A stretch of 64,000 nucleotides of DNA, taken from Actinoplanes sp. M2I2. GTDB taxonomy: Bacteria > Actinomycetota > Actinomycetes > Mycobacteriales > Micromonosporaceae. The notes under the pieces were generated by a model. It made no database searches, was not told the origin of the DNA, and saw only the letters and a program-made list of their open reading frames with translations. The position numbers and the translations under genes were made by a program. Numbering within the stretch: the stretch's first letter is position 1; each line of letters starts with the position of its first letter. The stretch is taken from positions 1 to 64,000 of the forward strand of contig NZ_JALPVJ010000002.1 in NCBI RefSeq assembly GCF_023544445.1, in the 5' to 3' direction. This document shows, in pieces, positions 14,366 through 48,885 of the stretch.

Positions 14366-14558
14366 GACCGCATGATCCCACTCGCTCGTGTCGTGCGCAC
14401 CGGAGGCCGGGCCGGCGCCGGAGACCATCGCTCCCTATCTATACCGGCCGTGTCCACAGCGGATCAACGCCGCGTTCACCGGCCGCCGTGAGGCTTTCGC
14501 TGTCGAATCCACCGAACGACAGCGCCTCCACCGGGGCGCGGACGACTGTGAAGGAGAC

Positions 14559-28306: not shown

Positions 28307-29904
28307 CACGCTGCTCCTCCGCTCGTGGCCGGCGCCGTGTCTCGAGTGGCCAGGGACAGCCGGTCGACCTTCCCGCTGGGGGTCCGTGGCAACGAGGCGA
28401 CGACCTCGGCCCCGACCGGCACCATGTACGCGGGCAACCGCTCGCGCAGGCCGGCCAGGAGACCGGCGGTCCAGGCCGGGGCGTCCGCCGGCGCCGCCTT
28501 CGGCACCAGGAAAGCGCGGAGGTGACGTTCCTCGGCCGCGGAGCCGCTGACCACCACCACCGCCTGGGCGACGGAGGGGTCGGAGCACAGCACGCTCTCG
28601 ATCTCCCCGAGCTCGATCCGGAAACCGCGCACCTTGACCTGCGTGTCCCGCCGGCCGAGGAACTCCAGGCGGCCGTCCGGCCCGACCCGGCCGAGGTCGC
28701 CGCTGAGGTACGCGGGCACGTCCGGGTCCAGCGGATCGGTGCGGTAGCTGCGCGCGGTGCGCTCGGGCAGGCCGAGGTAGCCCGGTCCGACGGCGGCACC
28801 GGTGATCCACAGCTCGCCCACCTCGCCGTCCGGCACCGGCCGGCCGTCCGGGTCACACACCCGTACGCCGGTGCCGGTGATCGGCGTGCCGATCGAGGGC
28901 AGGTCGACCCAGCCGGACACGTCCGCGGGCAGCTGGTACCAGGTGGCTACGTGGGTCTCGGTCGTGCCCCACTGGTTCACCAGGCGGCAGTCCGGCAGCC
29001 GGGTGAACATCGCCCGGATCGCCGCCGTGCACTGCATCTGTTCCCCGGAGGTGAGGATCTCGCGCAGCGGGTGGGTCGCCGGGGTCGTGTCGTCGGCGAA
29101 CAGGGCCAGCGACTGGATCATCACGAACGGCACGAACAGCCGGTTGACCCGCTCCCGTTCGATGAGGTCCCAGAGCAGCTGCGGGTCCAGCCGCTCGTCC
29201 TCGTCGCAGCAGACCACCGTGCCGCCCTCGCCCAGCGTGGGCAGGATCTCCTGGTACGTGACGTCGAACGAGGCCGGGGCGAACTGCAGGGTCCGGTCGC
29301 CCACGCCGCACACGCCGGCGCCGGCCTGCCAAGCCACGAGGTTGGCCAGGTTGTGGTGGGCGTAGCGCACGCCTTTCGGGCGGCCGGTGGAGCCGGAGGT
29401 GTAGACGACGTACGCGACGTCCTCGCCGGCCACCTCGGGGGCCTCGAACGCCGGGACGGAGTCCGGTAGGGACCGTGCCGGCCCCGCCGTGGCGTAGACG
29501 AGGGCCCGGTCGGTCACGACGGTGGTGAAGCCGCCCAGCCGGTCGAGCGGATCGTGATGGCCGACGACCAGGCGTACCCCGGCGTCGGCGCACATGAACC
29601 GCAGCCGCTCGGCCGGGTAGCCGACGTCCAGCGGCACCGCGACACAGCCGGAGCGCAGCAGCCCCACCAGCGTCACCACCAGATCCACCGACCGTTCCAG
29701 GTGGACGCCGACGGCCGTACCGGGGGTGGCCCCGAGTTGGGCCAGCCGGGCCGCGACCCGCGCGGACCGCTCCCACAGGGTGCGGTAGTCGACCGCCTCG
29801 CGCGCGGAGCGGACCGCCTCGGCGTCCGGCGACCGCCGTACGCGCTCGGCCACGGCCCGCAGCGCCGGGACGGTCGTGGTCACGGGGTCGGGATAGGGAT
29901 TCAT
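28306..29904 (-). CDS. Stand-alone NRPS adenylation domain
   Basis: A 532-aa A domain that would activate an amino acid as adenylate and load a carrier in trans, most likely the coupled C-PCP downstream. All core motifs are intact: YTSGSTGRPKGV, NQWGTTETHV, YLSGDLGRVG, GRRDTQVKVRGFRIELGE and PRTPSGKVDR with the catalytic Lys. By eye against GrsA the pocket code is D-V-Q-F-L-S-Q-V-A-K. The first four positions recall some proline-type pockets (DVQ...), but the rest do not, so I leave the substrate open. ATG 29904 overlaps the ligase stop (ATGA). Confidence 0.88.
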   Translation of the reverse strand: MNPYPDPVTTTVPALRAVAERVRRSPDAEAVRSAREAVDYRTLWERSARVAARLAQLGATPGTAVGVHLERSVDLVVTLVGLLRSGCVAVPLDVGYPAERLRFMCADAGVRLVVGHHDPLDRLGGFTTVVTDRALVYATAGPARSLPDSVPAFEAPEVAGEDVAYVVYTSGSTGRPKGVRYAHHNLANLVAWQAGAGVCGVGDRTLQFAPASFDVTYQEILPTLGEGGTVVCCDEDERLDPQLLWDLIERERVNRLFVPFVMIQSLALFADDTTPATHPLREILTSGEQMQCTAAIRAMFTRLPDCRLVNQWGTTETHVATWYQLPADVSGWVDLPSIGTPITGTGVRVCDPDGRPVPDGEVGELWITGAAVGPGYLGLPERTARSYRTDPLDPDVPAYLSGDLGRVGPDGRLEFLGRRDTQVKVRGFRIELGEIESVLCSDPSVAQAVVVVSGSAAEERHLRAFLVPKAAPADAPAWTAGLLAGLRERLPAYMVPVGAEVVASLPRTPSGKVDRLSLATRDTAPATSGGAA

Positions 29905-31289
29905 TTACGCCACTCCTCGGTCGTCGCCCGGCACAGGGTGATCCGGTGCGGTCGCTCGGCGCGCAGCAGGACGCGGTTGAGCGCCCGCTCGATCTCGGCC
30001 GCCAGCCGCGGCCCGGGTTCGTCCACGGCGACGTCCAGGCTGTAGCGCAGCTCGTCGCGTTCGTCCCGGAAGACGGTGGTGCTGGCGTGCCGGACCCCGG
30101 GCAGCTGGGTGGCCAGCCGGCGCACCGAGGGCAGCCAGACCTTCTCCCCGCCCACGACGACCGAGTCGCCGGAGCGCCCGCGGAAATAGTGGTAGCCGTC
30201 GGCGTCGAGGTCGAACCGGTCGCCGGTGGCGACGGCGCCCGCGACGGTCGGGGCGCCTCCGGGGAGTCGCCGGCGCAGCACCGTGTCGGACTCGACGACC
30301 AGTTCCCCGCCCGGTCCGTCGTCCGGGGAGTCGCGCAGGTACGTCCGTACCCCCGGCAGCGCGACCCCGACCGAGCCCCACCGATGCTCCGGCTCCCGGT
30401 GCGCGGCCAGCGTCGTCACCCGCGGGCCGGCCTCGGTGAGGCCGTAGGTGAGGTACAGCTCCCGCTGGGGATCACCCGCCAGCAGCGAACGGACGTGGGC
30501 CGGCTCCAGCGCGTCGCCGCCGACGGTGAGCACCCGCAGCGCGGCTGTCCCGGCCGGTGGGTCGGCGGCCAGCAGAGCCGCCGCGCTGGGCGTCAGCGAG
30601 GACACCGTGGCGTCATGGCGGCGGATCGTGTCCAGGAACGACCGGGGGGTGAACGGCGGGCCGGAGACGACCAGCCGCGAGCCCCGGACGAACGCGGCCA
30701 GCGCCTGGGCGACCAGACCGTAGGAGTAGTACAGGGGCAGGGACACCAGAACCGTGTCGTCGGGGCGCTGGCCGATGGCGGTGGCGTGCCGGCCGGCGTT
30801 GCGCAGCAGCGCGTCGAGGCCGTGCAGGCAGCCGCTGGCGATCCCGGAGGTGCCCGAGGTCATCAGCACGACCTCGCCCGGCTGATATCGCCGGCGCGCC
30901 GGGTCGTCCAGCAGCGCCGCCTCGCAGCGGCCGCCGATCGGGCGCACCGTCGCCGCGCCGTACCGGGCCGCGTCGATCCGGGGCGCGATCAGCGCCGCCC
31001 CGCCCAGCCGCCGGCCGATCTCGGTGATCCGGGCCGCTCCGGCCGCGGGCGGCAGCAGTATCGGAACCGCCCCGGCCAGCAACGCTCCGAAGAAGACGGC
31101 CAGGGTAGTCGTCCCGTTCGGCACGGCGATCAGCACGGGGGAGCCGGGTGGCAGGCCGAGACCGGCGACGTCGTCGATGACGGCGGCCGCGCCGGCCCGG
31201 GCCGGCGCGGTGCCGCCGGGACCGGGGCCGGCGTCCACCGCCGAGTCCAGGAAGGTCAGCACCGCCGAGCGTCGCAGGCCGGCCGTCAC
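29901..31289 (-). CDS. Acyl-AMP ligase-like (ANL superfamily) protein with unusual core motifs
   Basis: A 462-aa member of the adenylate-forming family, probably loading a carboxylic acid onto CoA or a carrier. It has LMTSGTSGIASGC as the phosphate loop, without the Lys normally found in PKG. It also has YLTYGLTEAG (A5), TGDRFDLDADGYHYFRGRSG (A7) and GGEKVWLPSVRR. The protein ends EEWRK where other ligases have the NGK loop, so the catalytic Lys could be the very last residue. GTG 31289 overlaps the preceding stop (GTGA). The neighbours (KS, KS-like protein, FabZ-like protein, ACP) suggest it primes or recovers acyl chains of that subset. Confidence 0.8.
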   Translation of the reverse strand: MTAGLRRSAVLTFLDSAVDAGPGPGGTAPARAGAAAVIDDVAGLGLPPGSPVLIAVPNGTTTLAVFFGALLAGAVPILLPPAAGAARITEIGRRLGGAALIAPRIDAARYGAATVRPIGGRCEAALLDDPARRRYQPGEVVLMTSGTSGIASGCLHGLDALLRNAGRHATAIGQRPDDTVLVSLPLYYSYGLVAQALAAFVRGSRLVVSGPPFTPRSFLDTIRRHDATVSSLTPSAAALLAADPPAGTAALRVLTVGGDALEPAHVRSLLAGDPQRELYLTYGLTEAGPRVTTLAAHREPEHRWGSVGVALPGVRTYLRDSPDDGPGGELVVESDTVLRRRLPGGAPTVAGAVATGDRFDLDADGYHYFRGRSGDSVVVGGEKVWLPSVRRLATQLPGVRHASTTVFRDERDELRYSLDVAVDEPGPRLAAEIERALNRVLLRAERPHRITLCRATTEEWRK

Positions 31290-31810
31290 GGCTGAGCCCC
31301 GAGCACGACGCAGCGGACCTGGTGCCCGTGCGGGTCGTGCTGGTGCAGACCGGCCACCACGTGACCGGCGGCGCCCGTCCGCAGCCAGTGCCGGGCCACC
31401 GTGAGGGCGGCCGGGTGGCCCTCGTCCGGCTCGGCGGTGATCACGAGCGTCGGCCCGCGGAAGCCGTGCACCAGGCACACGAGACTGACCGGGCCACCGG
31501 CGCTCGCACCGGCGAAGCGCAACGGGGACAGCCGCCCGCCCGGCACCGCGCGGGCGATCGCCGTCATGGTCGCCGTGGTGCCGTGGGCGCTGACCAGGAC
31601 CATCCCCGTGGCCTCGGGGGCGGCCCGCACCCCGGCCGGGCACCGGGCCCACGCCTCGTCGACGGCCGCCAGGACGCTCCAGGAGGTCGGGTCCGCGTAC
31701 AGGGAGGGGATTCGCCGGGACGGCGGCGTCGTGGACGGCCGGGTCAGCGCGGCCTCGGCCAACCGGACCAGGCCGTCGCCGCTCAGCTCCGGCATCCGGT
31801 GGCCGGTCAC
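31286..31810 (-). CDS. Truncated ketosynthase-like partner (KS N-terminal-like domain)
   Basis: A 174-aa protein related to the short ketosynthase-like proteins (Ketoacyl-synt_2 type) found beside FabF-like KS genes in polyene-type clusters. The recognisable part is GMVLVSAHGTTATMTAIARA, LSPLRFAGASAGGPVSLVCL and GFRGPTLVITAEPDEGHPAA. It has no active-site Cys and lacks the C-terminal half of a KS. It is therefore expected to act as a structural or chain-length partner of the KS encoded just upstream, to which it is coupled (GTGA at 31807-31810). The assignment is by motif order and context. Confidence 0.65.
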   Translation of the reverse strand: MTGHRMPELSGDGLVRLAEAALTRPSTTPPSRRIPSLYADPTSWSVLAAVDEAWARCPAGVRAAPEATGMVLVSAHGTTATMTAIARAVPGGRLSPLRFAGASAGGPVSLVCLVHGFRGPTLVITAEPDEGHPAALTVARHWLRTGAAGHVVAGLHQHDPHGHQVRCVVLGAQP

Positions 31811-32943
31811 GCGGCTGTCTCCAGGACCAGGCAGGTGGTGAACCCGCCGAACCCGAGGGTGACGCTGACCCCGACCTCGCCGGTGAACGGCAGCGCCAGG
31901 CCACCGCCGGGCAGGGGCAGCGGGAACCCCGGCATCACGTTCTTCAGCCCGCACACCGGCGGCACCTGCTGATCCCGCAGGGCCAGCAGGACGGCCACCG
32001 CCTCCAGCGCCCCGGTGGCGCCCAGGGTGTGGCCGAACGCGCCCTTGGTCGCGAACACCACCGGGCCCGACGGACCGGCGAACAGGCTCGTGAAGGCCCG
32101 GCACTCGACGGCGTCGTTGACCGGGGTGCCGGTGGCGTGCGCGTTGACGACGCCGACCTCGCCGGCGCCGCGGCCGGCCGCGGTCAGCGCGGCGCGTACC
32201 GCCTGGACGACGGTGTCGCCGCTGAGGTCCGGGGCGGTCGGACCGGCCGCGTCGTTCGCCGAGCCGGCGCCGGAGAGCCGGCCCCGGACGCGCGCCCCGC
32301 GCGCCCGGGCCGAGCTGTCCCGCTCGAGCACCAGGAACCCCGCGCCCTCACCGAGAACGGTGCCGTCGTGGCTCTCGTCGAAGGCCCGCAGCGCCGTGGG
32401 GGACATGGTGCCCAGCGCCGAGTGCCCCAGCCGCTTGGCCTGGGTCAGCACGTCCACGCCGCCGACGACGCAGATTTCCTCCGCCCCCTCGGCGATCAGG
32501 GCGGCGCCGAGAAGGATCGCGTCCGAGCCGGCCGAGCAGGCGGTGCTCACCGTGATCGGGCGCCGGGCCAGGCCCACCCCTTCGGCGAGGGCGTCGCCCC
32601 ACCGGTCCAGCCCTTCGGGTACGACATCCAGATGCGGCCCGTAGCTCGTGCCGGCGATCAGCCTCAGCCTCGGGTCGGTGACCTCCAGCCCGGCGTCGGT
32701 CACCGCGGCCCGCAGGGTTCGCGCGCCCAGCTCGTACTGGCGCCGCCCGGGATCGAGGTCCATCGGCAGGCCGGCCACGACCGCCGCCCGCTCGTTGCGC
32801 ACGGGGTGCGGGCTGGGCACGGTCACCACCCCGCTCGTCCCCGACAGCAGCGCCAGCCAGACCTCGTCGAGGTCCGAGCCCAGCGCTGTGTCCCAGCCCA
32901 TCCCGGTGACCAGCGCGCCCCGGTGCCCGCCCGGCTCGCTCAC
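31807..32943 (-). CDS. FabF-like beta-ketoacyl-ACP synthase
   Basis: A 378-aa discrete ketosynthase. The catalytic triad is complete: Cys in TVSTACSAGSDAI, His in NAHATGTPVND and His in KGAFGHTLGATGALE. The closing motif TLGFGGFTTCLVL replaces the usual NSFGFGGxN. It resembles the KS subunits of highly reducing type II PKS and aryl-polyene systems. The start is at the third of three consecutive GTG codons (32943), because it gives the GTGA overlap used throughout this operon. GTGs at 32946 and 32949 are alternatives. The partner proteins downstream and upstream (KS-like, FabZ-like, ACP) fit such a system, but no ketoreductase is present nearby. Confidence 0.87.
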   Translation of the reverse strand: MSEPGGHRGALVTGMGWDTALGSDLDEVWLALLSGTSGVVTVPSPHPVRNERAAVVAGLPMDLDPGRRQYELGARTLRAAVTDAGLEVTDPRLRLIAGTSYGPHLDVVPEGLDRWGDALAEGVGLARRPITVSTACSAGSDAILLGAALIAEGAEEICVVGGVDVLTQAKRLGHSALGTMSPTALRAFDESHDGTVLGEGAGFLVLERDSSARARGARVRGRLSGAGSANDAAGPTAPDLSGDTVVQAVRAALTAAGRGAGEVGVVNAHATGTPVNDAVECRAFTSLFAGPSGPVVFATKGAFGHTLGATGALEAVAVLLALRDQQVPPVCGLKNVMPGFPLPLPGGGLALPFTGEVGVSVTLGFGGFTTCLVLETAA

Positions 32944-33455
32944 CACCACTGGGGCTCCATGTCCGCGGCCTTGCGCCGGACCAGGTTGGCGCGGAAGGCG
33001 GCGACGGTCGTCGAACCCACCACGGCCCGGCCCGAGAAGAAGAACGTGGGACCCAGCAGGCGGTCGACCGACACGGTGAAGGTCACCGTGTCGCCGGGGG
33101 CGACGATCCGGAAGAACCGTGAGTTCATGGCGCCGACCAGCGTCAGCTCGTCCTCGGCGAGACGCGTGGTGCTCAGCTGGAACAGGATGATCCCGGACTG
33201 CGCGAACGCCTGACTCAGGTGGCTGGCCGGGAAGATCGCGCGCTCCGGGAAGTGTCCCGCGATCGCGTCCATCTGGGCCGACACCGAGAGCCGGCTGACC
33301 AGCCGGACACCGGGCTCGTAGTCGAGCACGCGGTCCAGGTAGAGCATCGGGTGCCGGTGACGCAGCCAGGTCTTGATCTCGGTGAAGCCCATCGTCCGGC
33401 TCGGCCCGGAGGACGGGTCCTGCTCGGTCGCGACGGCGGATTCAGCGGTGGACAT
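32940..33455 (-). CDS. FabZ-like hotdog protein with altered active site
   Basis: A 171-aa protein of the FabZ/FabA dehydratase family. The motif RHRHPMLYLDRVLDYEPG matches the FabZ segment with the catalytic His (HRYPFLLVDRV in FabZ). GHFPERAIFPASHLSQAFAQ matches [20 protein letters not shown]. In the latter the catalytic Glu position is Gln. It also lacks the PGV turn. It may thus be an inactive or repurposed subunit (inference). The protein starts at ATG 33455, overlaps the thioesterase gene by 14 bp and is coupled to the KS gene by GTGA. The first 40 residues are disordered. Confidence 0.8.
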   Translation of the reverse strand: MSTAESAVATEQDPSSGPSRTMGFTEIKTWLRHRHPMLYLDRVLDYEPGVRLVSRLSVSAQMDAIAGHFPERAIFPASHLSQAFAQSGIILFQLSTTRLAEDELTLVGAMNSRFFRIVAPGDTVTFTVSVDRLLGPTFFFSGRAVVGSTTVAAFRANLVRRKAADMEPQWW

Positions 33456-33894
33456 CGGAGCGGCTCTCCTCGAGGACGGCGTGCAGGACGGGAAGCAGCG
33501 CGCACGGTGCGCCGGTGGCACGGTCGGTCAGGGCCACGACCAGGGATCCGGTGGCGAGTTCGGCGCCGTCGGTGGTCCGCCGTACGGTCGTGTCGATCCG
33601 GGCCCGGGCCACGCTCAAGCGCCCGACGACGGGTTCCAGGTTCAGCTCGTCGGGGTAGCGGGCCGGCGCGAGGTACCGGGTCGTCGCCTCGGTGACGACC
33701 AGGTCGAAGCCCGCGCTCGCGAGCACGCCGAGCCCGACGCCGAGCCGTTCGAGGTTGGCCAGCAGGGCGGTCTCCTGCAGGGCCGGGTACCGGGCGAAGT
33801 GCACGACGCCGGACGCGTCGGTGTCGGCGTGCTCGACGCTGCGGCGGACCGGCAGCAGACGCGCCCGCTGGGCGGCGGCCGGGACGACCGTCAC
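33442..33894 (-). CDS. 4HBT-type hotdog acyl thioesterase
   Basis: A 150-aa hotdog thioesterase, similar to YbgC/4-hydroxybenzoyl-CoA thioesterases. The motif VEHADTDASGVVHFARYPAL carries the catalytic Asp in the D-x-S-G-V-V-H context. It probably hydrolyses an acyl-carrier or acyl-CoA thioester, either releasing the product of the discrete KS set or proofreading. GTG 33894 overlaps the aminotransferase stop (GTGA). It is the second releasing enzyme in the cluster beside the fused TE of the cysteine NRPS. Confidence 0.85.
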   Translation of the reverse strand: MTVVPAAAQRARLLPVRRSVEHADTDASGVVHFARYPALQETALLANLERLGVGLGVLASAGFDLVVTEATTRYLAPARYPDELNLEPVVGRLSVARARIDTTVRRTTDGAELATGSLVVALTDRATGAPCALLPVLHAVLEESRSDVHR

Positions 33895-35267
33895 GGCGCC
33901 GCCTCGCGCAGAGCTCGCGAGCCCGCGACCAGCCGGGCGACGATCGCCTCGACGTCGTCCGCGGTGGCCACCAGCGGCGGGGCGACCCGCATCGTCGGGT
34001 GGACGTAGCGCAGGTTGTGCGAGCGCCGCCCGGCGCCGGACATGAACTCCACGTAGACGCCGCTGCGGATCATGGCGGTCCGCAGGTCGCCGACCCGGTT
34101 CGCGGCCGCCTCGGTCAGCTCGACCCCGTACAGCAGGCCCACCCCGCGCGCCTCCCGGTACAGGTCGGGGAACTCGGCCACCACCCGGTCGCGCAGCAGC
34201 CGGCCCAGCCCGGCCCCCAGCTCGGCCGAGCGTTCGACCAGGCCCTCGGCCACGACGTGGTCGAGACCGGCGCGGATCACCGCACAGGTGAGCGGGCGCA
34301 GGTCGGACGTCGCCACCGTGCCGGTCGGGCGGACCCCGAGCTCGCGGCGGGCGATGACCATCGAGGTCGACAGGGCGCCCATGCCGAGGCTCTTGCCGAT
34401 CACGGTGATGTCGGTGGGAACGGGACCTTCGTCGTCCGACATCGCGAAGAACCGGCCGGTCTTGGCGAACGTGAGGACCTCGTCGGCCACCAGCAGGCCG
34501 CCGCTGTGCTCGGTGAGCGCGGCCAGCCGGCGCAGGTAGCCCGGTTCCGGTACGAGGATTCCCGCGTCGCCCTGGACGGGTTCCACCACCACCGCCAGCA
34601 GCCGGTCGCCGTTGCGGCTGAACCACTGCTCCGCCGCTTCGACGTCGCCGAACGGGAGGTGCTCGGTGCGGAAGCCGAACTGCTCGGGGTCGACCGTCGG
34701 GAGGCCGACGCGATAGTGCCGGCGGTTGAGCAGCGGAAGCAGCCCGCCCGACCAGCCGTGCCACGCCCCCTGGAACCCGAGCACGATGTCCCGGCGCTCG
34801 GCCCCGGCGACGGCGCGCAGGCGCCGCCGGTCGAAGCGCGACTCGAGGACGAGACGCAGCGCGAGCTCCATGCCCTCGGAGCCCGAGTTGCGTCCGCTGA
34901 CCCGGTAGTCGGCCGCCGGGAACCGGTCGGCGAACAGTCCGCCCGCGCCGAACAGCCGTTCCAGGAGCAGCGAACGTTCCGACGAGGCGATCTCGTCGGT
35001 CACGTAGCCCGCTTGCCGGACCGCGGTGGCCATGGCCGAGGCGATGACCTCCGAGCCGGCGCCCAGGCAGGCGGACCCGTACCCGCCGCTGGCGTCGAGC
35101 ACGTCGAAGGTACGTCCCTGGTCCTGACCGCTCAGCTCGACGAAGTGCTGGACGAGCCCGGTCGCCCCGGTGCACCCGAAGGGCAGCGGCTCTCCCCCGT
35201 AATGGTCGAACTGGACGTCGCGGTCGAACCACGACCCGGCCGAGCGGAGCACGCCGGCAGGTGACAT
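33891..35267 (-). CDS. Class III PLP-dependent aminotransferase (GSA-aminotransferase-like)
   Basis: A 458-aa fold-type I aminotransferase that would convert an aldehyde or ketone into an amine. PLP-binding Asp lies in LLVADEVLTFAKTGRFF and the Schiff-base Lys in ITVIGKSLGMGALSTS. SGRNSGSEGMELALRLV and FQGAWHGWSGG resemble glutamate-1-semialdehyde aminotransferases. Placed between an ACP and a thioesterase, it probably aminates a chain aldehyde or beta-keto carbon or makes an amino-acid building block. No reductase that would give an aldehyde is seen. ATG 35267 has GAGGACACCTCC ahead. A 41-bp gap separates it from the ACP, the only real gap in the operon. Confidence 0.88.
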   Translation of the reverse strand: MSPAGVLRSAGSWFDRDVQFDHYGGEPLPFGCTGATGLVQHFVELSGQDQGRTFDVLDASGGYGSACLGAGSEVIASAMATAVRQAGYVTDEIASSERSLLLERLFGAGGLFADRFPAADYRVSGRNSGSEGMELALRLVLESRFDRRRLRAVAGAERRDIVLGFQGAWHGWSGGLLPLLNRRHYRVGLPTVDPEQFGFRTEHLPFGDVEAAEQWFSRNGDRLLAVVVEPVQGDAGILVPEPGYLRRLAALTEHSGGLLVADEVLTFAKTGRFFAMSDDEGPVPTDITVIGKSLGMGALSTSMVIARRELGVRPTGTVATSDLRPLTCAVIRAGLDHVVAEGLVERSAELGAGLGRLLRDRVVAEFPDLYREARGVGLLYGVELTEAAANRVGDLRTAMIRSGVYVEFMSGAGRRSHNLRYVHPTMRVAPPLVATADDVEAIVARLVAGSRALREAAP

Positions 35268-35308
35268 GGAGGTGTCCTCTCGGGTGGTGGTGGTCGGAGT
35301 CGTGGACG

Positions 35309-35578
35309 TCAATCCGCACTGACCTTGGGACGGCCCTGCAGGGTGCCGACGAGGGCGGCCACGCTGCGGATGCTGGTGAAGTTCTCGGGCGTGAACTCGG
35401 CGTCCGAGATGGTGATCCCGAACGTGTTTTCGCACTGGACCCGCAGCTCGACGAAGCCCAGGGAGTCCAGCCCGAAGTGGTCCCGGAGCCGGTCCTCGGG
35501 GTTCATCCGGTCCTCCGGGATCTCCACGAACAGATCCGTGACCAGCATGGATCCGATGGCTCGCTCGATGTCGTTCAC
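35309..35578 (-). CDS. Acyl carrier protein
   Basis: An 89-aa discrete ACP with attachment serine in DHFGLDSLGFVELRVQCEN and typical helices around it (ERAIGSMLVTDLFVEIPEDR, TPENFTSIRSVAALVGTL). GTG 35578 overlaps the PKS stop (GTGA) and follows AAGGAG. It probably serves both the KS-(AT0) protein upstream, which lacks its own carrier, and the discrete KS set downstream. Confidence 0.9.
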   Translation of the reverse strand: MNDIERAIGSMLVTDLFVEIPEDRMNPEDRLRDHFGLDSLGFVELRVQCENTFGITISDAEFTPENFTSIRSVAALVGTLQGRPKVSAD

Positions 35579-37842
35579 TGAAGTCGCTCTCCTTGCGTCA
35601 GGTGGGGGGTGGGGTGGGGCACGAGGTAGGGACGGCGCTCGAACGGGTAGGTCGGCAGGTGCAGGCGGCGCCGGCGCTCGCCCGTGTGCAGGGCGGCGAA
35701 GTCGACAGTCGCCCCGGCGGCCCAGAGCCGGCCGGCCGCGGTGAGCGCGGCGCGCAGACCGGCCGGTGACCGGGTGGATCCGTCCAGGACGTCGACCGGC
35801 ACCGGCTCGAAATCGCCGGCGGCCGCGGCCCCCGGTTGCCGTCCGATCCGCACGACGAGCTGCCCCGGCGGGCTGTCCAGGGCCGCTGCGACGTCGCACA
35901 GCATCGGACCGCCCGGCACCGGCGCGCCGGCGGTCCCCGTGACGAGCAGAAGGGCTGTTTCGGCCGGGCTCAGCTCGGCGGCCAGGGCCATCGCGCAGCG
36001 GGCGCCGAGCCCGTGCCCGGCCACGGCGTCGGGAAGCACCCCCCAGGACATCAGCAGCCTCGCCGTCGCGTACTGCACAGCAAGGTGCGCGGCCGGACCC
36101 GTCGACGCGCCCGGTGCCGGGGTCTCGAGCAGCTCCCGGCGCAGGTCGTGGCCGAGCTGTGGTCGCGCGGCCTCGGCGATCGCGTCCAGCTGGGCGCGGA
36201 AGACCTCCTCGGCGCCATGGAGTGCCGCAAGCGCCGCGACCGAGCCCGCGGGGTCGCCGCCGGGCTCCGCGAACAGGAACACGGTGCGTCCCCGGCCGGG
36301 GCGACCCTCGCCGCCGTCGCCCGGTCGGCTGCCGCGCAGGGCGGCGACCGCCTCGAGGGCGTTCGAGGCGACCACGAAGTGACGCCGGGAGTGCCCGGCC
36401 CGGCCCGTCTGCAACGTCCAGGCGACGTCGGCCAGGTCGGCGTCCGGATGGCGTTCGAGGTGGTCGGCCAGCGACAGGGCCATGGTGTGCAGGGCCGGCC
36501 CGGTCCGGGCCGAGAGCACCAGCAGCTGGTCCGGTCGGGCGGACGTCGTCGGCAGTCCGGCCGGCGGCTCGGCCACCACCGCGTGGGCGTTGGTGCCGCC
36601 GAAGGCGATCACGTTCGTGGCGCCGATCCGGGTCCGCCCTCCGGATTCCCACGGGATCGTCCGGTCGTTGACGACGAAGGGCGAGGACGCGAAGTCGATC
36701 GCCGGGTTCGGCGCGCTGAAGTTCAGGCTGGCGGGGAGCACGCCGCGCTCCACGCAGAGCACCGTCTTGATCAGTCCGACGATGCCGGCCGCCGCGTCGG
36801 CGTGGCCGATGTTGGCCTTGACCGAGCCGATCCGGCAGTAGCCCGTCCGGTCGGTGCTCTGGCGGAACGCCTTGGTCAGGCCGGCCACCTCGACCGGGTC
36901 GCCGAGCGCGGTGCCGGTGCCGTGCGCCTCGACGTAGCCGATGTCGCCGGCGTCGACCCCGGCCACCAGGTGGGCGGTGCGCGCGGCGCCGGCCGGCCCG
37001 GCCACGCTCGGGACGTGGAAGCCCATCTTGCGCCGGCCGTCGTTGTTCACCGCGGTGCCCCGGATGACCGCGTGCACGGGATCGCCGTCCTCCAGCGCCT
37101 CGGCGAGCGGCCGGAGGACCACCAGGCCCACCGCGCCGGCCCGCACGGTGCCGCGGCCGTGCGCGTCGAACGGACGGGTCCGCCCGTCGTCGGCGAAGAT
37201 GTCCTCCGGATCGTGCACCAGCTCCGGGATCGCGGCCAGCACCGAGGCGCCACCGGCCACGGCCATGGCGCAGTCACCGGCGAGCAGCGAGCCGATGGCG
37301 ACGTGCACCGCCACCAACGACGAGGAACAGGCCGACTGCACCGCCAGGGCCGGTCCGGTCAGGCCCAGCTTGTACGCGATCCGGGTGGCCAGGAAGTCGA
37401 CGTCGTTGCCCTGCTGAACGCGGGAGTCCGACACCGGGACACCCCGGGCGCGGCCCCAGGCCCGGACCAGTGCGCCGTGGTCGGTGATCGACCCCCCGAC
37501 GAACACCCCGGTCGGCAGGCGTTCCGCACCGCCGTGCCCGGCGCGTTCGAGAGCCTCGTGGGCGCACTCCAGCAACAGCCGGTGCTGAGGATCGGTGACC
37601 AGAGCGTCCTCGGAGGTGTAGTCGAAGTAGTCGGCGTCGAAGAATTCCGGGTCCGTCAACCGGCCGTAGGACGGCACGTATCCGTCGGTGGCCGCCGGGA
37701 GCTGGTCGGACAGCACGGAGACCGATTCCCGGCCGGCACAGAGGTTGTCCCAGAAGGCCTCGATGTCCTCGGCCCCGGGGAACCGGCCCGCCATGGCCGT
37801 GACGGCGACAAAACCGCTGTCGGCGACGTCTTCGGTGCTCAT
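35575..37842 (-). CDS. Type I PKS: ketosynthase with inactive acyltransferase, no carrier
   Basis: A 755-aa protein opening the eleven-gene operon. The KS (about 10-430) has Cys172 in VQSACSSSLVAVH, His in EAHGTGTALGDPVEV and His in KANIGHADAAAG. The AT-like part (about 520-700) carries GHGLGARCAMA where GHSxGE is expected, so Gly replaces the nucleophilic Ser, and FLFAEPGGD replaces the GQGxQ motif. There is no carrier domain. The separate ACP follows immediately. ATG 37842 follows GAGGTAT; the frame is open further upstream but lacks homology. Same decay pattern as in the other PKS at 14.6 kb, pointing to a common ancestor or a common need for an AT supplied from outside. Confidence 0.9.
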   Translation of the reverse strand: MSTEDVADSGFVAVTAMAGRFPGAEDIEAFWDNLCAGRESVSVLSDQLPAATDGYVPSYGRLTDPEFFDADYFDYTSEDALVTDPQHRLLLECAHEALERAGHGGAERLPTGVFVGGSITDHGALVRAWGRARGVPVSDSRVQQGNDVDFLATRIAYKLGLTGPALAVQSACSSSLVAVHVAIGSLLAGDCAMAVAGGASVLAAIPELVHDPEDIFADDGRTRPFDAHGRGTVRAGAVGLVVLRPLAEALEDGDPVHAVIRGTAVNNDGRRKMGFHVPSVAGPAGAARTAHLVAGVDAGDIGYVEAHGTGTALGDPVEVAGLTKAFRQSTDRTGYCRIGSVKANIGHADAAAGIVGLIKTVLCVERGVLPASLNFSAPNPAIDFASSPFVVNDRTIPWESGGRTRIGATNVIAFGGTNAHAVVAEPPAGLPTTSARPDQLLVLSARTGPALHTMALSLADHLERHPDADLADVAWTLQTGRAGHSRRHFVVASNALEAVAALRGSRPGDGGEGRPGRGRTVFLFAEPGGDPAGSVAALAALHGAEEVFRAQLDAIAEAARPQLGHDLRRELLETPAPGASTGPAAHLAVQYATARLLMSWGVLPDAVAGHGLGARCAMALAAELSPAETALLLVTGTAGAPVPGGPMLCDVAAALDSPPGQLVVRIGRQPGAAAAGDFEPVPVDVLDGSTRSPAGLRAALTAAGRLWAAGATVDFAALHTGERRRRLHLPTYPFERRPYLVPHPTPHLTQGERLQ

Positions 37843-37978
37843 ATACCTCGTTCTCCGGTCGGAATCGATCGGGACGCCGGCCCGACGGCAGTGACGTCGA
37901 ACGGGCAATCGCCTGGGGAACTGGGAGGGCAGCGTCCATGGGAGCGTAGTCAGAGACCCCTGTCGAAACAGGGAATAA

Positions 37979-38031
37979 GCAGGTGAAGATCCGGCAAATT
38001 CGATCGACAGCTGGCAATGCTATCGAATACC
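37979..38031 (+). promoter_or_regulatory. Repeat copy A with + strand promoter-like boxes
   Basis: CAGGTGAAGATC (from 37980) is followed by AATT-CGATCGACA. The part TCGACA (38004-38009), then a 16-bp spacer and AATACC (38026-38031), resembles a sigma-70-type promoter reading towards the exporter. Copy B at 38183-38236 has the same arrangement with AATACT. The shared block contains the palindrome TCGATCGA, a likely regulator contact. Confidence 0.5.
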
Positions 38032-38052
38032 TCAGCCGTTTACATCTGTCAA
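38024..38052 (-). promoter_or_regulatory. Promoter candidate for the eleven-gene operon
   Basis: On the - strand TTGACA (38052-38047, perfect -35) is followed after 17 bp by TATTCG (38029-38024, weak -10). Transcription would start near 38017 and give a leader of about 175 nt before ATG 37842. It overlaps the + oriented boxes of repeat copy A, so the two directions may exclude each other. Confidence 0.5.
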
Positions 38053-38093
38053 CGTCGACGCCGCATGCTGACGGTTGATCGCGCGTGAGAAGG

Positions 38094-38117
38094 AAAAACG
38101 CCCCTCGGTCGGGCGTT
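38094..38117 (-). terminator. Intrinsic terminator with U-tract, - strand
   Basis: Read on the - strand: AACGCCC, 7-nt loop, GGGCGTT, running into TTTTT (38098-38094). It is one of the few hairpins in this window with a real T-tract. No gene ends here. It either shields the operon promoter from upstream - strand transcription or acts as an attenuator in a longer leader. Confidence 0.65.
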
Positions 38118-38182
38118 CGTGACCGTTGCGGGACAGGTTTGGTGGCAACACGATCGGACACTCGGACGTCCACAACGGATGA

Positions 38183-38236
38183 TCAGGTGAAGATCAGGGG
38201 AATTTCGATCGACATGCGGTGAATCGCGTTAATACT
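38183..38236 (+). promoter_or_regulatory. Repeat copy B with + strand promoter-like boxes
   Basis: Near-copy of 37979-38031, 205 bp further on, starting CAGGTGAAGATC. TCGACA (38209-38214), a 16-bp spacer and AATACT (38231-38236) would start a transcript about 190 nt before the exporter ATG at 38428. The two copies differ at only a few positions over the first 31 bases, including one inserted T. Confidence 0.55.
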
Positions 38237-38427
38237 GTGCGGGTCGCCGCCCATTGCCGTTGCTGCTTGACAAAGGTGGCACGGCTGGATCTACTAATGG
38301 CTCGCCGACCATTCGACCGCCATTCGTTTCACCATTGACGGTGACCTGATATCCCGTGACGTGCGTGAAGCCTGGAGTCGGCAATCTTTCCCGTTGTTGA
38401 CCGGCGTGATGTGGACGGAGACGTGGA

Positions 38428-39711
38428 ATGACCGGGTGGCGATCGGGCCTGCGCCGGAGCCTGTGGGGCGCCGCGGACTACCGCAACCTCTGGCTGTCCC
38501 AGACGACCAGCCTGTTCGGCACCGGCATCACCCTTCTGGCCCTTCCCCTGGTGGCGCTGTTCCTCCTCGACGCGTCGCCGTTCGAGGTCGGCCTGCTCTG
38601 GGCGGTCGAATACCTGCCGATTCTGCTGATCGGTCTCCCGGCCGGCGTCTGGGTGGACCGGTTGCCGTTGCGCGCCGTGATGGTCGGGGCCGACGTGATG
38701 CGGGCGGTGGCTCTGCTCGCCGTACCGATCGCGCTGGGCCTCGGCGTTCTGAGCATGCCCTTGCTGTACGTCGTGACGTTCCTCATCGGCCTGGGCACGC
38801 TGTTCTACGACGTCGCGCAGTTGTCGATCCTGCCCGCGCTGGTCGCCGACGACCGCCTGGTCGACGCCAACGGGAAGCTCGAACTGTCCCGGTCGGTGGC
38901 GCAGGTCGGCAGCCCGGCCGTCGGCGGTCTGATGGTGCAGGTGCTCACCGCCCCGCTCGCGGTGCTCGCCGACGCGGTGACCTATCTGTCGTCGGCCTAC
39001 TACGTGCTGCGCATCCGCAAGCCGCCACCGGTGACCCGGCCGGCCGAGCCGGCCAGTCTCCGCCAGGACATCCGCGAGGGCCTCCGGTTCGTCTTCGGTC
39101 ATCCCCTGATGCGGCCGCTGTTGTGGTGCGCCACGCTGGCCGAGCTGGCCTCCGCGATCATCCTCGCGCTGCAGGTGGTCTACGCCGCCGAGGTCCTGCT
39201 CCTGAGCCCGGTGGTTATCGGTGTCGCGTTGGCCGTCGGCAACGGCGGCGGTGTGGTCGGATCGCTCCTCGCGGAACCCTTCGCACGCCGTTTCGGGACC
39301 GGGACCGCCTTCCTGGTCTCGATCGTGCTGTTCACCGCCGGCTCGGCCATCCTGCCGATCTCCACCGGGCCGGTGACGTTCGCGCTGGGCATGTTCATCG
39401 CCTACCTCGGCGCCTTCACGTTCAACGTCCTGCAGGTCAGCCTCTGCCAGGCCGTGACGCCACCGCACCTGCTCGGGCGGATGAACTCGGTCTTCCGGTT
39501 CGCCACCTGGGGCGTCATCCCGCTGGGGGCGGCCGGCGGCGGGCTCCTGGTCGATGCGATCGGCCTGCGCGGCGTGTTCTGGCTGGCCGCCGCGCTGAAC
39601 GCCCTCTCCTTCATCCCGCCGTGGCTGTCGAAGATCCACCGGCTTCGCGAGGTCGTCCACCACAGTGCCGAGGAGCCGGCCGTGGAAACCGGAAAGTCCA
39701 CAGCTCGGTGA
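38428..39711 (+). CDS. MFS transporter (enterobactin exporter-like, MFS_3)
   Basis: A 427-aa inner-membrane transporter with about 12 hydrophobic segments. Motif A-like loop GVWVDRLPLRAVMVGADVMRA lies between helices 2 and 3. LRQDIREGLRFVFGHPLMRP is typical of the central loop of MFS_3 exporters. It resembles the transporter half of the NRPS fusion at 22 kb. It is divergent from the biosynthetic operon and shares its control region, so export of the product or self-resistance is the likely role. ATG 38428 follows GGAGACGTGGA. Confidence 0.88.
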   Translation: MTGWRSGLRRSLWGAADYRNLWLSQTTSLFGTGITLLALPLVALFLLDASPFEVGLLWAVEYLPILLIGLPAGVWVDRLPLRAVMVGADVMRAVALLAVPIALGLGVLSMPLLYVVTFLIGLGTLFYDVAQLSILPALVADDRLVDANGKLELSRSVAQVGSPAVGGLMVQVLTAPLAVLADAVTYLSSAYYVLRIRKPPPVTRPAEPASLRQDIREGLRFVFGHPLMRPLLWCATLAELASAIILALQVVYAAEVLLLSPVVIGVALAVGNGGGVVGSLLAEPFARRFGTGTAFLVSIVLFTAGSAILPISTGPVTFALGMFIAYLGAFTFNVLQVSLCQAVTPPHLLGRMNSVFRFATWGVIPLGAAGGGLLVDAIGLRGVFWLAAALNALSFIPPWLSKIHRLREVVHHSAEEPAVETGKSTAR

Positions 39712-40050: not shown

Positions 40051-40833
40051 GTGTTGTTCACGGCTAAATGCCCGGTTGCTGCCGATGAGCAGGAGTGGAT
40101 CGACGGCCGCATGGCCCGGTTCCTCGAGCGGTTCGGCACCAGCTGGCTCGGCTCGCCTGTCATCTTGCCCACCGCGGAGTTCTTCCCGGGCGCCTATACC
40201 GGCACCGAGCAAGACATGCGTCGGGCGGTCGTCGCCGTTTGCGGATTCATGGGCGTCGACGACTCGCGCATCTTCGTCAAGTTCCCCGAGGCCATCTCGA
40301 GGGAGGCCGGGACGGCGAGGCGATGGACCAGGGTCGCCGGCACGAGCAGCATGTCGCCCGCAGCGACGTCCGCCGACACGTATACCCGGTCGGACGCTCC
40401 TAGCAGCTACCGCAGGATCGGCAGGAACGCACGTATCTCGCTCGACCCGACGCTCGGCCGGCACCCGCTGCTGCTGCTGGCCACGATCGCGCGCGAGTTG
40501 GCGTACGACCGGCTCCTCACCGGGAAGGGCAGGCTCGTCAACAGAGAATTGCAGCCCGTATCCGAGCTGTTGACGGTGTTCCTCGGTTTCGGGGTCATCA
40601 CGGCGAACGCAGCGTTCGAGTTCTCCCACACCACGGATCAGGACAGCCGTCGCGGCCAGTGGTCGGCAAGCCGCCTTGGCCTGCTCACCGAGCCGATGTA
40701 CGGCTACGCGCTTGCCCGCTACGCCATGATGCGCGGCGAGCCGCGTCCGGATTGGGCTCGCTTCGTCGACAGTAATCCGCGCGCCTACCTGAGGAAGGGC
40801 GTGCGTTTCATCAGGCGGCTGGAACGCAGCTGA
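40051..40833 (+). CDS. Hypothetical protein with a degenerate HExxH-like site
   Basis: A 260-aa protein without a signal peptide or membrane helix. The core LLLLATIARELAYDRLL sits where, as I remember related actinobacterial proteins, a zinc-protease-like HELxHxxLL motif stands. Here the His residues are Arg and Tyr/Asp. ELLTVFLGFGVITANAAFEF and LLTEPMYGYALARYAMMRGE follow, then a basic C-terminus. If the comparison is right, this is a metal-free relative. GTG 40051 is preceded by GGGGGAGG and GGAG. It lies between the exporter and the C-A-PCP NRPS, convergent with the latter. No role in biosynthesis can be inferred. Confidence 0.55.
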   Translation: MLFTAKCPVAADEQEWIDGRMARFLERFGTSWLGSPVILPTAEFFPGAYTGTEQDMRRAVVAVCGFMGVDDSRIFVKFPEAISREAGTARRWTRVAGTSSMSPAATSADTYTRSDAPSSYRRIGRNARISLDPTLGRHPLLLLATIARELAYDRLLTGKGRLVNRELQPVSELLTVFLGFGVITANAAFEFSHTTDQDSRRGQWSASRLGLLTEPMYGYALARYAMMRGEPRPDWARFVDSNPRAYLRKGVRFIRRLERS

Positions 40834-47074: not shown

Positions 47075-48097
47075 TTACTCCTCGCCGCCCGGGGTAGGGG
47101 ACCGGTGAGGCGCTCCCCTCACCGGCTCGGGACTGTCGCCGGGAGGATGGTAGGCGACCATCGCGGCAACCGCGGCGATCGACAATCCGATCAGAAGCGT
47201 CCGCAGGCCCGGCATGATGCTGTCCGGGAACACGGTCGCGTCGCGGAACGGCCACGGCATCCAGGCGAGCGCCTGGTGCACCGGGGCACCGACGTCGTCG
47301 TTCTCGCGGAGGAAGAGAACCAGGCCCTGGTACAGGCGAGCGGTCGGCGCAACGAGAACGGCCAGGCCCACCGCGGCCAGCACCGCGGCCGGCACCCGAT
47401 GGGGGGAGGCCGCCAGCCGATGGGCCGTCGCGGCGCCCGCCAGCCAGCCGGCCACCAGTCCCGCCAGCAGGCCGAGCAGGACCAGCGGCAGGTACGTCGC
47501 GGGGCGTACCGGATGACCGAGGACCTCGACGGAGCCGGTGGGCCCGGCGTTGCCCACGACCGAGACCCGCAGGCCGCCCGACCGGGCCGAGAAGCTCCAC
47601 TGGTCGGAGCTGCGATAGCGCTCGACCGCGGTGACGTCCCAGCCGGCCGTGGCCAGCCGCTCGTGGATCTCCCGTACCCGCTGCTCGGCCGGGGCGCCGC
47701 CGGCCGCCGGGCTCAAGGGGGCCGTGAACGACAGCTCGGAGCCCTCGCGCCGGAGCCGCTCCGGCTGAACCTCGGGACCGAGGATCTGCGTGGCCAGGGG
47801 AGCCACCGCGGGCATCGACGGATAGGTCCGCGCGCCGGCCAGCGAGCCGGCGGCCAGGCCGACCGCCCCGCCGATCAGGGTCGCCAGCGTGGCCGTCACC
47901 AGCGCGAGCGCGCCCCACGGCCGTCCGGCCGGCAGCCGGAACCGCTCGCGCAGCCCGTCGGCGACCAGCCGCAGGCGATCGGCGCGGGTCGGGCGGCCGT
48001 CGGTCATCTCGGCCAGGGTCGAGATCAGTTCGCCGCCGTGGCGGCGGCGGAGGTGGGCCGGGTACGAGGCCAGCAGGAGACGGTGCCGCATGGTCAC
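47075..48097 (-). CDS. Multi-pass membrane protein under PadR control
   Basis: A 340-aa protein of unknown function. The N-terminal 60 residues (HRLLLASYPAHLRRRHGGEL) match the opening of permease-like proteins that follow PadR genes. Five or so hydrophobic segments are seen (about 65-85, 200-225, 235-255, 300-320), and a soluble domain lies between the first and second. It begins at GTG 48097, which overlaps the PadR stop (GTGA), so the regulator and this protein are translated together. In such pairs the membrane protein is usually the regulated partner. No catalytic motif. Confidence 0.65.
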   Translation of the reverse strand: MTMRHRLLLASYPAHLRRRHGGELISTLAEMTDGRPTRADRLRLVADGLRERFRLPAGRPWGALALVTATLATLIGGAVGLAAGSLAGARTYPSMPAVAPLATQILGPEVQPERLRREGSELSFTAPLSPAAGGAPAEQRVREIHERLATAGWDVTAVERYRSSDQWSFSARSGGLRVSVVGNAGPTGSVEVLGHPVRPATYLPLVLLGLLAGLVAGWLAGAATAHRLAASPHRVPAAVLAAVGLAVLVAPTARLYQGLVLFLRENDDVGAPVHQALAWMPWPFRDATVFPDSIMPGLRTLLIGLSIAAVAAMVAYHPPGDSPEPVRGAPHRSPTPGGEE

Positions 48098-48423
48098 GCG
48101 GCACCGCCCGTGAGCCCGGGGCGGCGTCCCAGCTGGGCCTCGGCCGCCGCTGTCCGCCGGCGCCATCGCTCGGCCTCCTGGGCGAGGAGGTCGGTGCCGG
48201 TGTCGGTGAGCCGGTAGTAGCGACGCAGTCGCCCGTCGACGGCCTCCTCGTGGTCGACCGCGATCAGGCCCTGCCCGGCGAGCCGGTCGAGCGCGCCGTA
48301 CAGGGTGCCCGGCCGCAGTTTCACGTCGCCGTCGGAGAGCGCCTCGACCGACTGGATGATCCCGTAACCGTGCCGCGGTTGAGCCGCGAGCGCCGTGAGG
48401 ATGAGGAAGGTGGCTTCTTGCAT
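48094..48423 (-). CDS. PadR family transcriptional regulator
   Basis: A 109-aa PadR repressor, winged helix: EATFLILTALAAQPRHGYGI, then LRPGTLYGALDRLAGQGLI and RRYYRLTDTGTDLL. Short C-terminal helix for dimerisation. ATG 48423 is the natural start; it has no ribosome binding site. A well-formed promoter places the transcription start at or next to this ATG, so the mRNA is likely leaderless. An open frame upstream to 48480 has no homology. Confidence 0.9.
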   Translation of the reverse strand: MQEATFLILTALAAQPRHGYGIIQSVEALSDGDVKLRPGTLYGALDRLAGQGLIAVDHEEAVDGRLRRYYRLTDTGTDLLAQEAERWRRRTAAAEAQLGRRPGLTGGAA

Positions 48424-48430
48424 GGCGACG

Positions 48431-48459
48431 ATGATAAGTGTGACGAGATATAACGTCAA
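48431..48459 (-). promoter_or_regulatory. Promoter of the PadR operon, leaderless transcript
   Basis: On the - strand TTGACG (48459-48454), a 17-bp spacer and TATCAT (48436-48431). Seven bases separate the -10 box from the PadR ATG, so transcription should start at the ATG. The AT-rich spacer (TTATATC) is a probable PadR binding site, giving autoregulation. Confidence 0.7.
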
Positions 48460-48483
48460 ACGTAGTATGAGGAACCACAACCC

Positions 48484-48536
48484 TTGACCGCGTCGAGTCC
48501 GGCGACTAGCTTGGCTTTCAACCAGTCAGTTGAAAG
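48484..48536 (+). promoter_or_regulatory. Promoter and palindromic operator of the ArsR operon
   Basis: TTGACC (48484-48489), a 17-bp spacer and TAGCTT (48507-48512) form a promoter with a weak -10. Directly downstream lies a perfect inverted repeat CTTTCAAC-CAGTCA-GTTGAAAG (48515-48536) just before the ribosome binding site. An operator at this place would block initiation. Its TCAACC...GTTGA core is what I would expect for an ArsR regulator paired with an SRPBCC gene. Confidence 0.65.
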
Positions 48537-48546
48537 GCGGATCAGG

Positions 48547-48885
48547 ATGCCGGCCGACACCCTGTCGCGGACGTTCGCGGCGCTGGCCGACCCCACCCGG
48601 CGCGACATGGTGGCTCGCCTGTCGGTGGCCGACGCCACCGTCGCCGAGCTCGCCGAGCCGTACGCGATGAGCCTGCAGGCCGTCTACAAGCACCTGCGGG
48701 TGCTGGAGGAGGCGGGCGTGGTCAACCGCCCACCGGGACCTCAGCCCCGGCCGGTGCGCCTCGAGGTCGGCTCGCTCGACCTGATGGACGAGTGGATCGA
48801 GCAGTACCGTCGCCGGGCCGAGGAGCGCTACCAGCGTCTCGATCGGGTGCTGGGCGCGATGGAGGACGAGGAGACCGGATCATGA
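48547..48885 (+). CDS. ArsR family transcriptional regulator
   Basis: A 112-aa winged-helix repressor: FAALADPTRRDMVARLSVAD, then ELAEPYAMSLQAVYKHLRVL and EEAGVVNRPPGPQPRPVRL. It lacks the CxC metal site of ArsR/SmtB, as is normal for the subgroup coupled to SRPBCC genes. ATG 48547 lies 10 bp after the palindromic operator; the purine-rich AAAGGCGGATCAGG is the ribosome binding region. Its stop overlaps the next gene by ATGA. It probably represses its own operon. Confidence 0.9.
   Translation: MPADTLSRTFAALADPTRRDMVARLSVADATVAELAEPYAMSLQAVYKHLRVLEEAGVVNRPPGPQPRPVRLEVGSLDLMDEWIEQYRRRAEERYQRLDRVLGAMEDEETGS

Follow-up and report, generated by a model that had tools for sequence, protein, structure and literature searches.

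What purpose is served by a short element that occurs twice between a biosynthetic operon and the gene of an exporter? The two copies, A and B, lie in a stretch of 64,000 nucleotides (the window; 71.8% G+C) that forms the start of contig C15 (764,572 bases) in the 9.58 Mb genome (9,583,080 bases) of Actinoplanes sp. M2I2. A 585-bp gap separates the start of a ketosynthase gene (37842, minus strand; this start codon was picked by alignment to orthologues) from the start of an MFS exporter gene (38428, plus strand), and A and B sit in it, between a divergent cispentacin-type biosynthetic operon on the minus strand and the exporter gene on the plus strand. Downstream of the first ketosynthase gene the operon encodes an ACP, an AmcC-type aminotransferase, a 4HBT thioesterase, an AmcE-type FabA-like protein, an AmcF-type ketosynthase, the product of an unmatched gene (31161-31823) and an AmcH-type ligase; NRPS parts come after these minus-strand operon genes. 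Four of the operon proteins are named AmcC, AmcE, AmcF and AmcH by NCBIfam, all above the curated cut-offs, and in the available sections of PMC10698177 these are families of the cispentacin pathway. The coordinates are collected in Table 1.

Table 1. Features of the locus, with positions counted from the first base of the window.
Feature	Position	Strand	Basis or remark
Copy A as first described, CAGGTGAAGATC..TCGATCGACA	37980..38009	+	30 bases; direct reading, repeat search
Copy B as first described	38184..38214	+	31 bases; direct reading, repeat search
Operator copy A, predicted	37970..37998	-	Alignment with five orthologue sites; self-similarity; PWM 41.2
Operator copy B, predicted	38174..38202	-	PWM 30.9; repeat scores 1, 4, 4 of 4
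Operon -10 box TACGCT (predicted role)	37943..37948	-	All six genomes have TAnnnT at a distance of 52 bp from the site
Weak -35 position CTGTTT (predicted)	37966..37971	-	17 bp from the -10 box; read from the sequences
Exporter promoter TTGACA-17-TCTACT (predicted role)	38267..38295	+	Conserved in relatives
Ketosynthase with partial acyltransferase region, first operon gene	35575..37842	-	Pfam; 76-79% identity in five orthologues
Downstream operon genes	29901..35578	-	Pfam, NCBIfam
Divergent MFS exporter	38428..39711	+	Pfam MFS_1; 82-86% identity in five orthologues
Putative terminator-like hairpin with T run, facing the operon, between B and A	38096..38118	-	One found, 0.5 expected in shuffles

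The original prediction described two 31-base copies 205 bp apart. The duplication itself was borne out; the lengths were not, as A and B differ by a one-base indel (30 and 31 bases), and the distance of 205 bp applies end-to-end, compared to 204 bp start-to-start. The boxes AATACC (38026-38031) and AATACT (38231-38236) are both present 16 bases after the copies, as claimed. When the two intergenic halves are aligned locally, the stretches 37968-38030 and 38172-38235 give a score of 26, which is reached by none of 1000 dinucleotide shuffles (mean 13.3, sd 1.9, maximum 22).

The proposed search of the genome for further copies was run. With a middle gap of 7-10 bases the full pattern occurs only twice in 9,583,080 bases, so that the element taken as a whole is no common repeat, and a dispersed genomic repeat was rejected. 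A pattern with fixed gap and up to three mismatches matched A alone genome-wide, and missed B because B is one base longer. The 12-mer CAGGTGAAGATC alone has 6 occurrences in the genome, and eight further looser matches (two for a reversed-pattern control) score between -14.6 and 5.4 with the PWM. The window holds more near-matches to AGGTGAAGATC (up to two mismatches) than shuffles do, 28 compared to a mean of 7.66, and the repeat search gave a 61% third copy at 38421-38453, which is without support from the site profile. A mobile or repeated insert was rejected as well, the 586-bp region having no other match in its own genome; among 66 other genomes of the genus three were matched, only by pieces of 26-29 bases (E 2e-4 to 4e-4). 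No known RNA element was found in Rfam for positions 37700-38500 at E up to 1, and the fold z-score of 0.06 between B and A gives no sign of a structured RNA. The putative hairpin listed in Table 1 sits in a stretch that is absent from the orthologues. Readings of the element as a palindrome, an AdpA-like or a GlnR-like site were considered by eye only, against consensus sequences.

For comparison we collected orthologous clusters. A protein search led to 19 loci, three of which show the ketosynthase/exporter layout, namely those of Pseudonocardia xinjiangensis (L013), Nonomuraea candida (L014) and Kibdelosporangium philippinense (L015); some of the remaining 16 end early at contig ends. Among 300 genomes of the family eight were matched, the window's own counted. 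The two closest of them, G113 and G160, show the layout in their larger regions, and the five other family matches are 60-65% identical, the first ketosynthase gene being unmatched in their loci, each some 4.3 kb long. A wider search for orthologues, with E of at most 1e-200, matched three of 354 family genomes, including the window's own, and one of 394 class genomes, which is the window's own; plasmids gave no match.

The five orthologues (L013, L014, L015, G113, G160) contain one site each, located at the position of copy A, and redefine the site as three 11-bp direct repeats, each composed of a 7-base unit and a 4-base spacer. On the plus strand A reads AGGGAAT-aagc-AGGTGAA-gatc-CGGCAAA, corresponding to TTTGCC..TTCACC..TTCCC on the strand of the operon. 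B possesses two good repeats, AGGTGAA-gatc-AGGGGAA, and a degenerate third one (AACGGAT), likewise with 4-base spacers. The conserved part is the half GGTGAAGATC(N)GG(N)AAATT together with its 5' neighbour; the TCGATCGACA half is not conserved, and the two-half element as first described was not found at the orthologous places with up to five mismatches allowed. The self-similarity of the six-site profile peaks at a shift of 11 (-0.35, compared to -1.18 or lower for the other twelve shifts from 5 to 17). If the PWM is built from the five orthologue sites only, with the window left out, A reaches 41.2 and B 30.9; the next value in the 64 kb is 9.6, and the best value in 2 Mb of Markov sequence is 18.4. 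Apart from A and B the profile gives no operator-like site in this stretch. The second-best matches within the five orthologues score 0.6, 0.2, 2.3, 3.3 and 6.5, compared to 46.8 or more for the sites themselves. In the 16 more distant loci L016-L031 (L036-L040 left out) no match exceeded 10.6 with a PWM that included A. The repeats are imperfect: scored as triplets of NGGNNAA, those of L014 and L015 stand out only weakly, 4 and 55 of 200 shuffles being as good. A pattern search for a wider regulon, run on three genomes, gave 20 places. Besides A and B these comprise 18, which score at most 8.4 with the PWM and none of which has TAnnnT at the right place. As this pattern fixes the letters of the spacer it is not a fair regulon search.

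A and B are probably duplicate docking sites of a regulatory protein. The predicted operator is conserved and belongs to a known kind; among the six clusters only that of the window holds two copies. A plus-strand open frame (35836-37986), antisense to the ketosynthase gene and reaching into copy A, was taken as spurious, and so was the flag of a pattern-match scan that placed A inside a coding-like frame.

Copy A had been assigned to the minus-strand promoter of the operon, and in agreement with this it abuts the promoter that conservation across six genomes now defines. The TAnnnT box reads TACGCT in the window, L014 and G113, TACTCT in L013, TAGCCT in L015 and TAGGCT in G160, and the last repeat ends 21 bp before it in all six genomes. 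At the -35 position four of the five orthologues have CTGTGA and G160 has CTGGGA; in the window this weak position is overlapped by two bases by the promoter-proximal repeat of A. On the exporter side, five of the six genomes have TTGACA followed after 17-18 bp by a box resembling TCTACT; in G160 this promoter is degraded. A consensus scan of 37800-38480 found neither of these conserved promoters, its sole sigma-70-like match being TCGACA-16-AATACT at B (0.1 expected). B has CGTGTT where a minus-strand -10 box would stand at the ancestral spacing, and because such a box is missing, B is better read as a copied operator than as a second operon promoter.

With moderate confidence we propose a duplicated operator for a regulator of the OmpR fold, that is a SARP or a response regulator of the OmpR class, for instance PhoP. 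A winged-helix regulator of this fold, SARP-type or PhoP, is the protein most likely to bind the predicted site. In the available parts of PMC10936776, PMC3367932 and PMC5930380, 11-bp direct repeats are the rule for SARPs; repeats 11 or 22 bp apart are expected, and the six-site profile fits best at a shift of 11. PHO boxes (PMC4415409) follow the 11-bp rule too, and both kinds of site are recognised by domains of the OmpR fold. According to the same parts of PMC10936776 the 3' repeat of a SARP site ends 8 bp from the -10 box, whereas the distance is 21 bp here. Since the rule for the repeats holds and the 8-bp rule does not, we speak of an OmpR-type tandem operator and name no single protein. 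Such a regulator would bind the three head-to-tail 7-base units at 11-bp spacing, at A just upstream of the weak -35 position of the operon promoter and touching it, and would most likely activate the operon. In the relatives the one site between operon and exporter may serve both. An event of about 205 bp in the lineage of the window could then have duplicated the site and pushed the two promoters apart, with A kept at the ancestral distance from the operon promoter, and B where most relatives have their site relative to the exporter promoter, which would give one copy per promoter and a presumptive role for B at the exporter promoter. More tentatively, the operator may thereby have been split into a triplet for the operon and a doublet for the exporter, so that a single regulator, with its gene outside the cluster, could tune the two separately.

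The cluster itself does not offer an obvious candidate for this regulator. The Pfam scan covered 39 proteins of the window; BTAD has 32 matches in the genome and none in the window, and Trans_reg_C has none in the window among the matches listed, the nearest on C15 among these being Trans_reg_C at 104925 and BTAD at 146456. No recognised regulator is present among the mechanically predicted frames common to the clusters, and the TetR, PadR and ArsR-type regulators at 283-1041, 48094-48480 and 48484-48885 lie outside the common genes. The common gene 31161-31823 could conceivably encode an unrecognised regulator, as it is without a family match. A limited literature search on the regulation of cispentacin clusters found no paper, and the word 'regulator' is absent from the main text of PMC10698177 as far as it was available.

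Within the OmpR-fold reading, A and B could more specifically be PHO boxes, by which phosphorylated PhoP ties operon and exporter to the phosphate supply. The motif published for Streptomyces coelicolor consists of 11-nt units with GTTCACC (PMC4415409, available in part), and on the operon strand the middle repeat of each of the seven site copies agrees with GTTCACC in 6 or 7 of 7 positions. Loci L049 and L050 also hold PHO-like pairs upstream of pstS, GTTCACT/GTTCATT in the window's genome and GTTCACC/GTTCACT in G113. However, the outer two repeats diverge strongly from this motif, matching in only 2-5 of 7 positions, compared to 5-7 of 7 in both units of the pstS pairs, and around pstS of G160 (L051, approximately 1.5 kb on each side) no PHO-like pair was found. 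We regard PHO boxes as possible but not probable.

In the relatives the site lies 63 (L013), 46 (L014), 115 (L015), 63 (G113) and 62 bp (G160) from the exporter -35 box, and in the window the distance is 64 bp for B and 268 bp for A. Thus A keeps the position of the relatives relative to the operon, and B the position relative to the exporter seen in three of the five. The distance to the exporter promoter is not strictly fixed, ranging from 46 to 115 bp. A and B have letters in common that are absent from the five orthologues, the gATC spacer and TCGATCGACA, and because of these shared letters B appears to have arisen in the lineage of the window. This suggests a lineage-specific extra copy; as the related clusters examined have one copy each, the strain has probably duplicated a control site that is ordinary in other respects. 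The observed layout is what one would expect of a tandem duplication of some 205 bp, yet the flanks give no clear sign of it: for the comparison of B with A, 941 of 1000 shuffles were as good on the left and 62 of 1000 on the right. A short copied insert may account for B as well, since the flanks do not clearly show a tandem duplication.

B might accordingly be no more than a decaying, functionless leftover of the duplication, with A alone at work, which we consider doubtful. In favour of this, B has lost its third repeat and lacks a minus-strand -10 box at the ancestral spacing. Against this, two adjacent repeats of B are intact even though its flanks have lost clear similarity, and the survival of the site under these circumstances suggests selection. 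B also keeps the exporter spacing of three of the five orthologues; this spacing follows automatically from a tandem duplication and does not independently prove a function.

Least probable of all is a reading close to that of the original prediction, in which TCGACA-16-AATACC/T at A and B are duplicated plus-strand promoters that raise transcription of the exporter: the single hit of the consensus scan falls on B, A has the same spacing and L015 has AACACC at the matching place, but TCGACA occurs there in none of the five orthologues, an AATACC-like box only in L015, the AATACC of A fails the -10 rule of the scan for want of a final T, and five of the six genomes share another plus-strand promoter, TTGACA-17/18-TCTACT. 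A plus-strand promoter pair present at both copies and conserved in the relatives was thus not found, and we set this promoter aside because the relatives lack TCGACA. Of the two options originally given for the duplicated unit, a whole promoter or a protein site, the second probably stands in the form of a regulatory site, and the whole promoter with AATACC/AATACT was dropped.

The duplicated operator that we prefer can be compared to known systems, as described in the available parts of the cited papers. PimR, a SARP-LAL regulator of Streptomyces natalensis, likewise acts in a divergent intergenic region, between pimM and pimR (PMC3367932, PMC5930380). Its main operator comprises three 7-base direct repeats with 4-nt spacers and is accompanied by a secondary operator of two repeats; the main operator is located 55 nt upstream of the -35 box, compared to 62-64 bp from the exporter -35 box for B and three of the five orthologues. 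The 4-nt spacers are present here too, but the repeats of window and orthologues match the PimR heptamer CGGCAAG in only 1-6 of 7 positions each. Unlike in the PimR system, no SARP gene adjoins the operator, the second site is a duplicate that five relatives lack, and it is the distance to the opposite promoter that stays constant between genomes. The afs box of AfsR at afsS (PMC10936776) also has 11-bp direct repeats near a weak -35 box, although there are two of them, centred at -29.5, and three here. The cispentacin cassette of amipurimycin (PMC10698177) shares the AmcC, AmcE, AmcF and AmcH families with the operon of the window, which in contrast is part of a larger NRPS/PKS cluster.

The repeats, the -10 box and their exact spacing provide a candidate control switch for a cispentacin-type NRPS/PKS cluster without a recognised regulator gene, and an example of an operator between divergent promoters that was duplicated with both spacings kept. 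The kind of operator is already known, and the duplication supports no claim of a new mechanism.

We further report some observations on neighbouring genes. The operon gene 31161-31823, which adjoins the AmcF-type ketosynthase gene and has no Pfam or NCBIfam match, is 43-60% identical in four of the five orthologues and unmatched in G160. An open frame of 260 amino acids (40051-40833) between the exporter and the NRPS gene has no Pfam or NCBIfam match and no match in L013-L031, G113 or G160. Genes for a hydrolase, a TPR protein and a metallo-hydrolase separate the PKS/NRPS part of the window from the ketosynthase operon, and have no match in 80 kb of G113 or G160. In G113 and G160 a PKS and a large NRPS/MFS gene are found downstream of the ketosynthase operon on the same strand; in the window they occupy 14388-22582 and are inverted relative to this arrangement.
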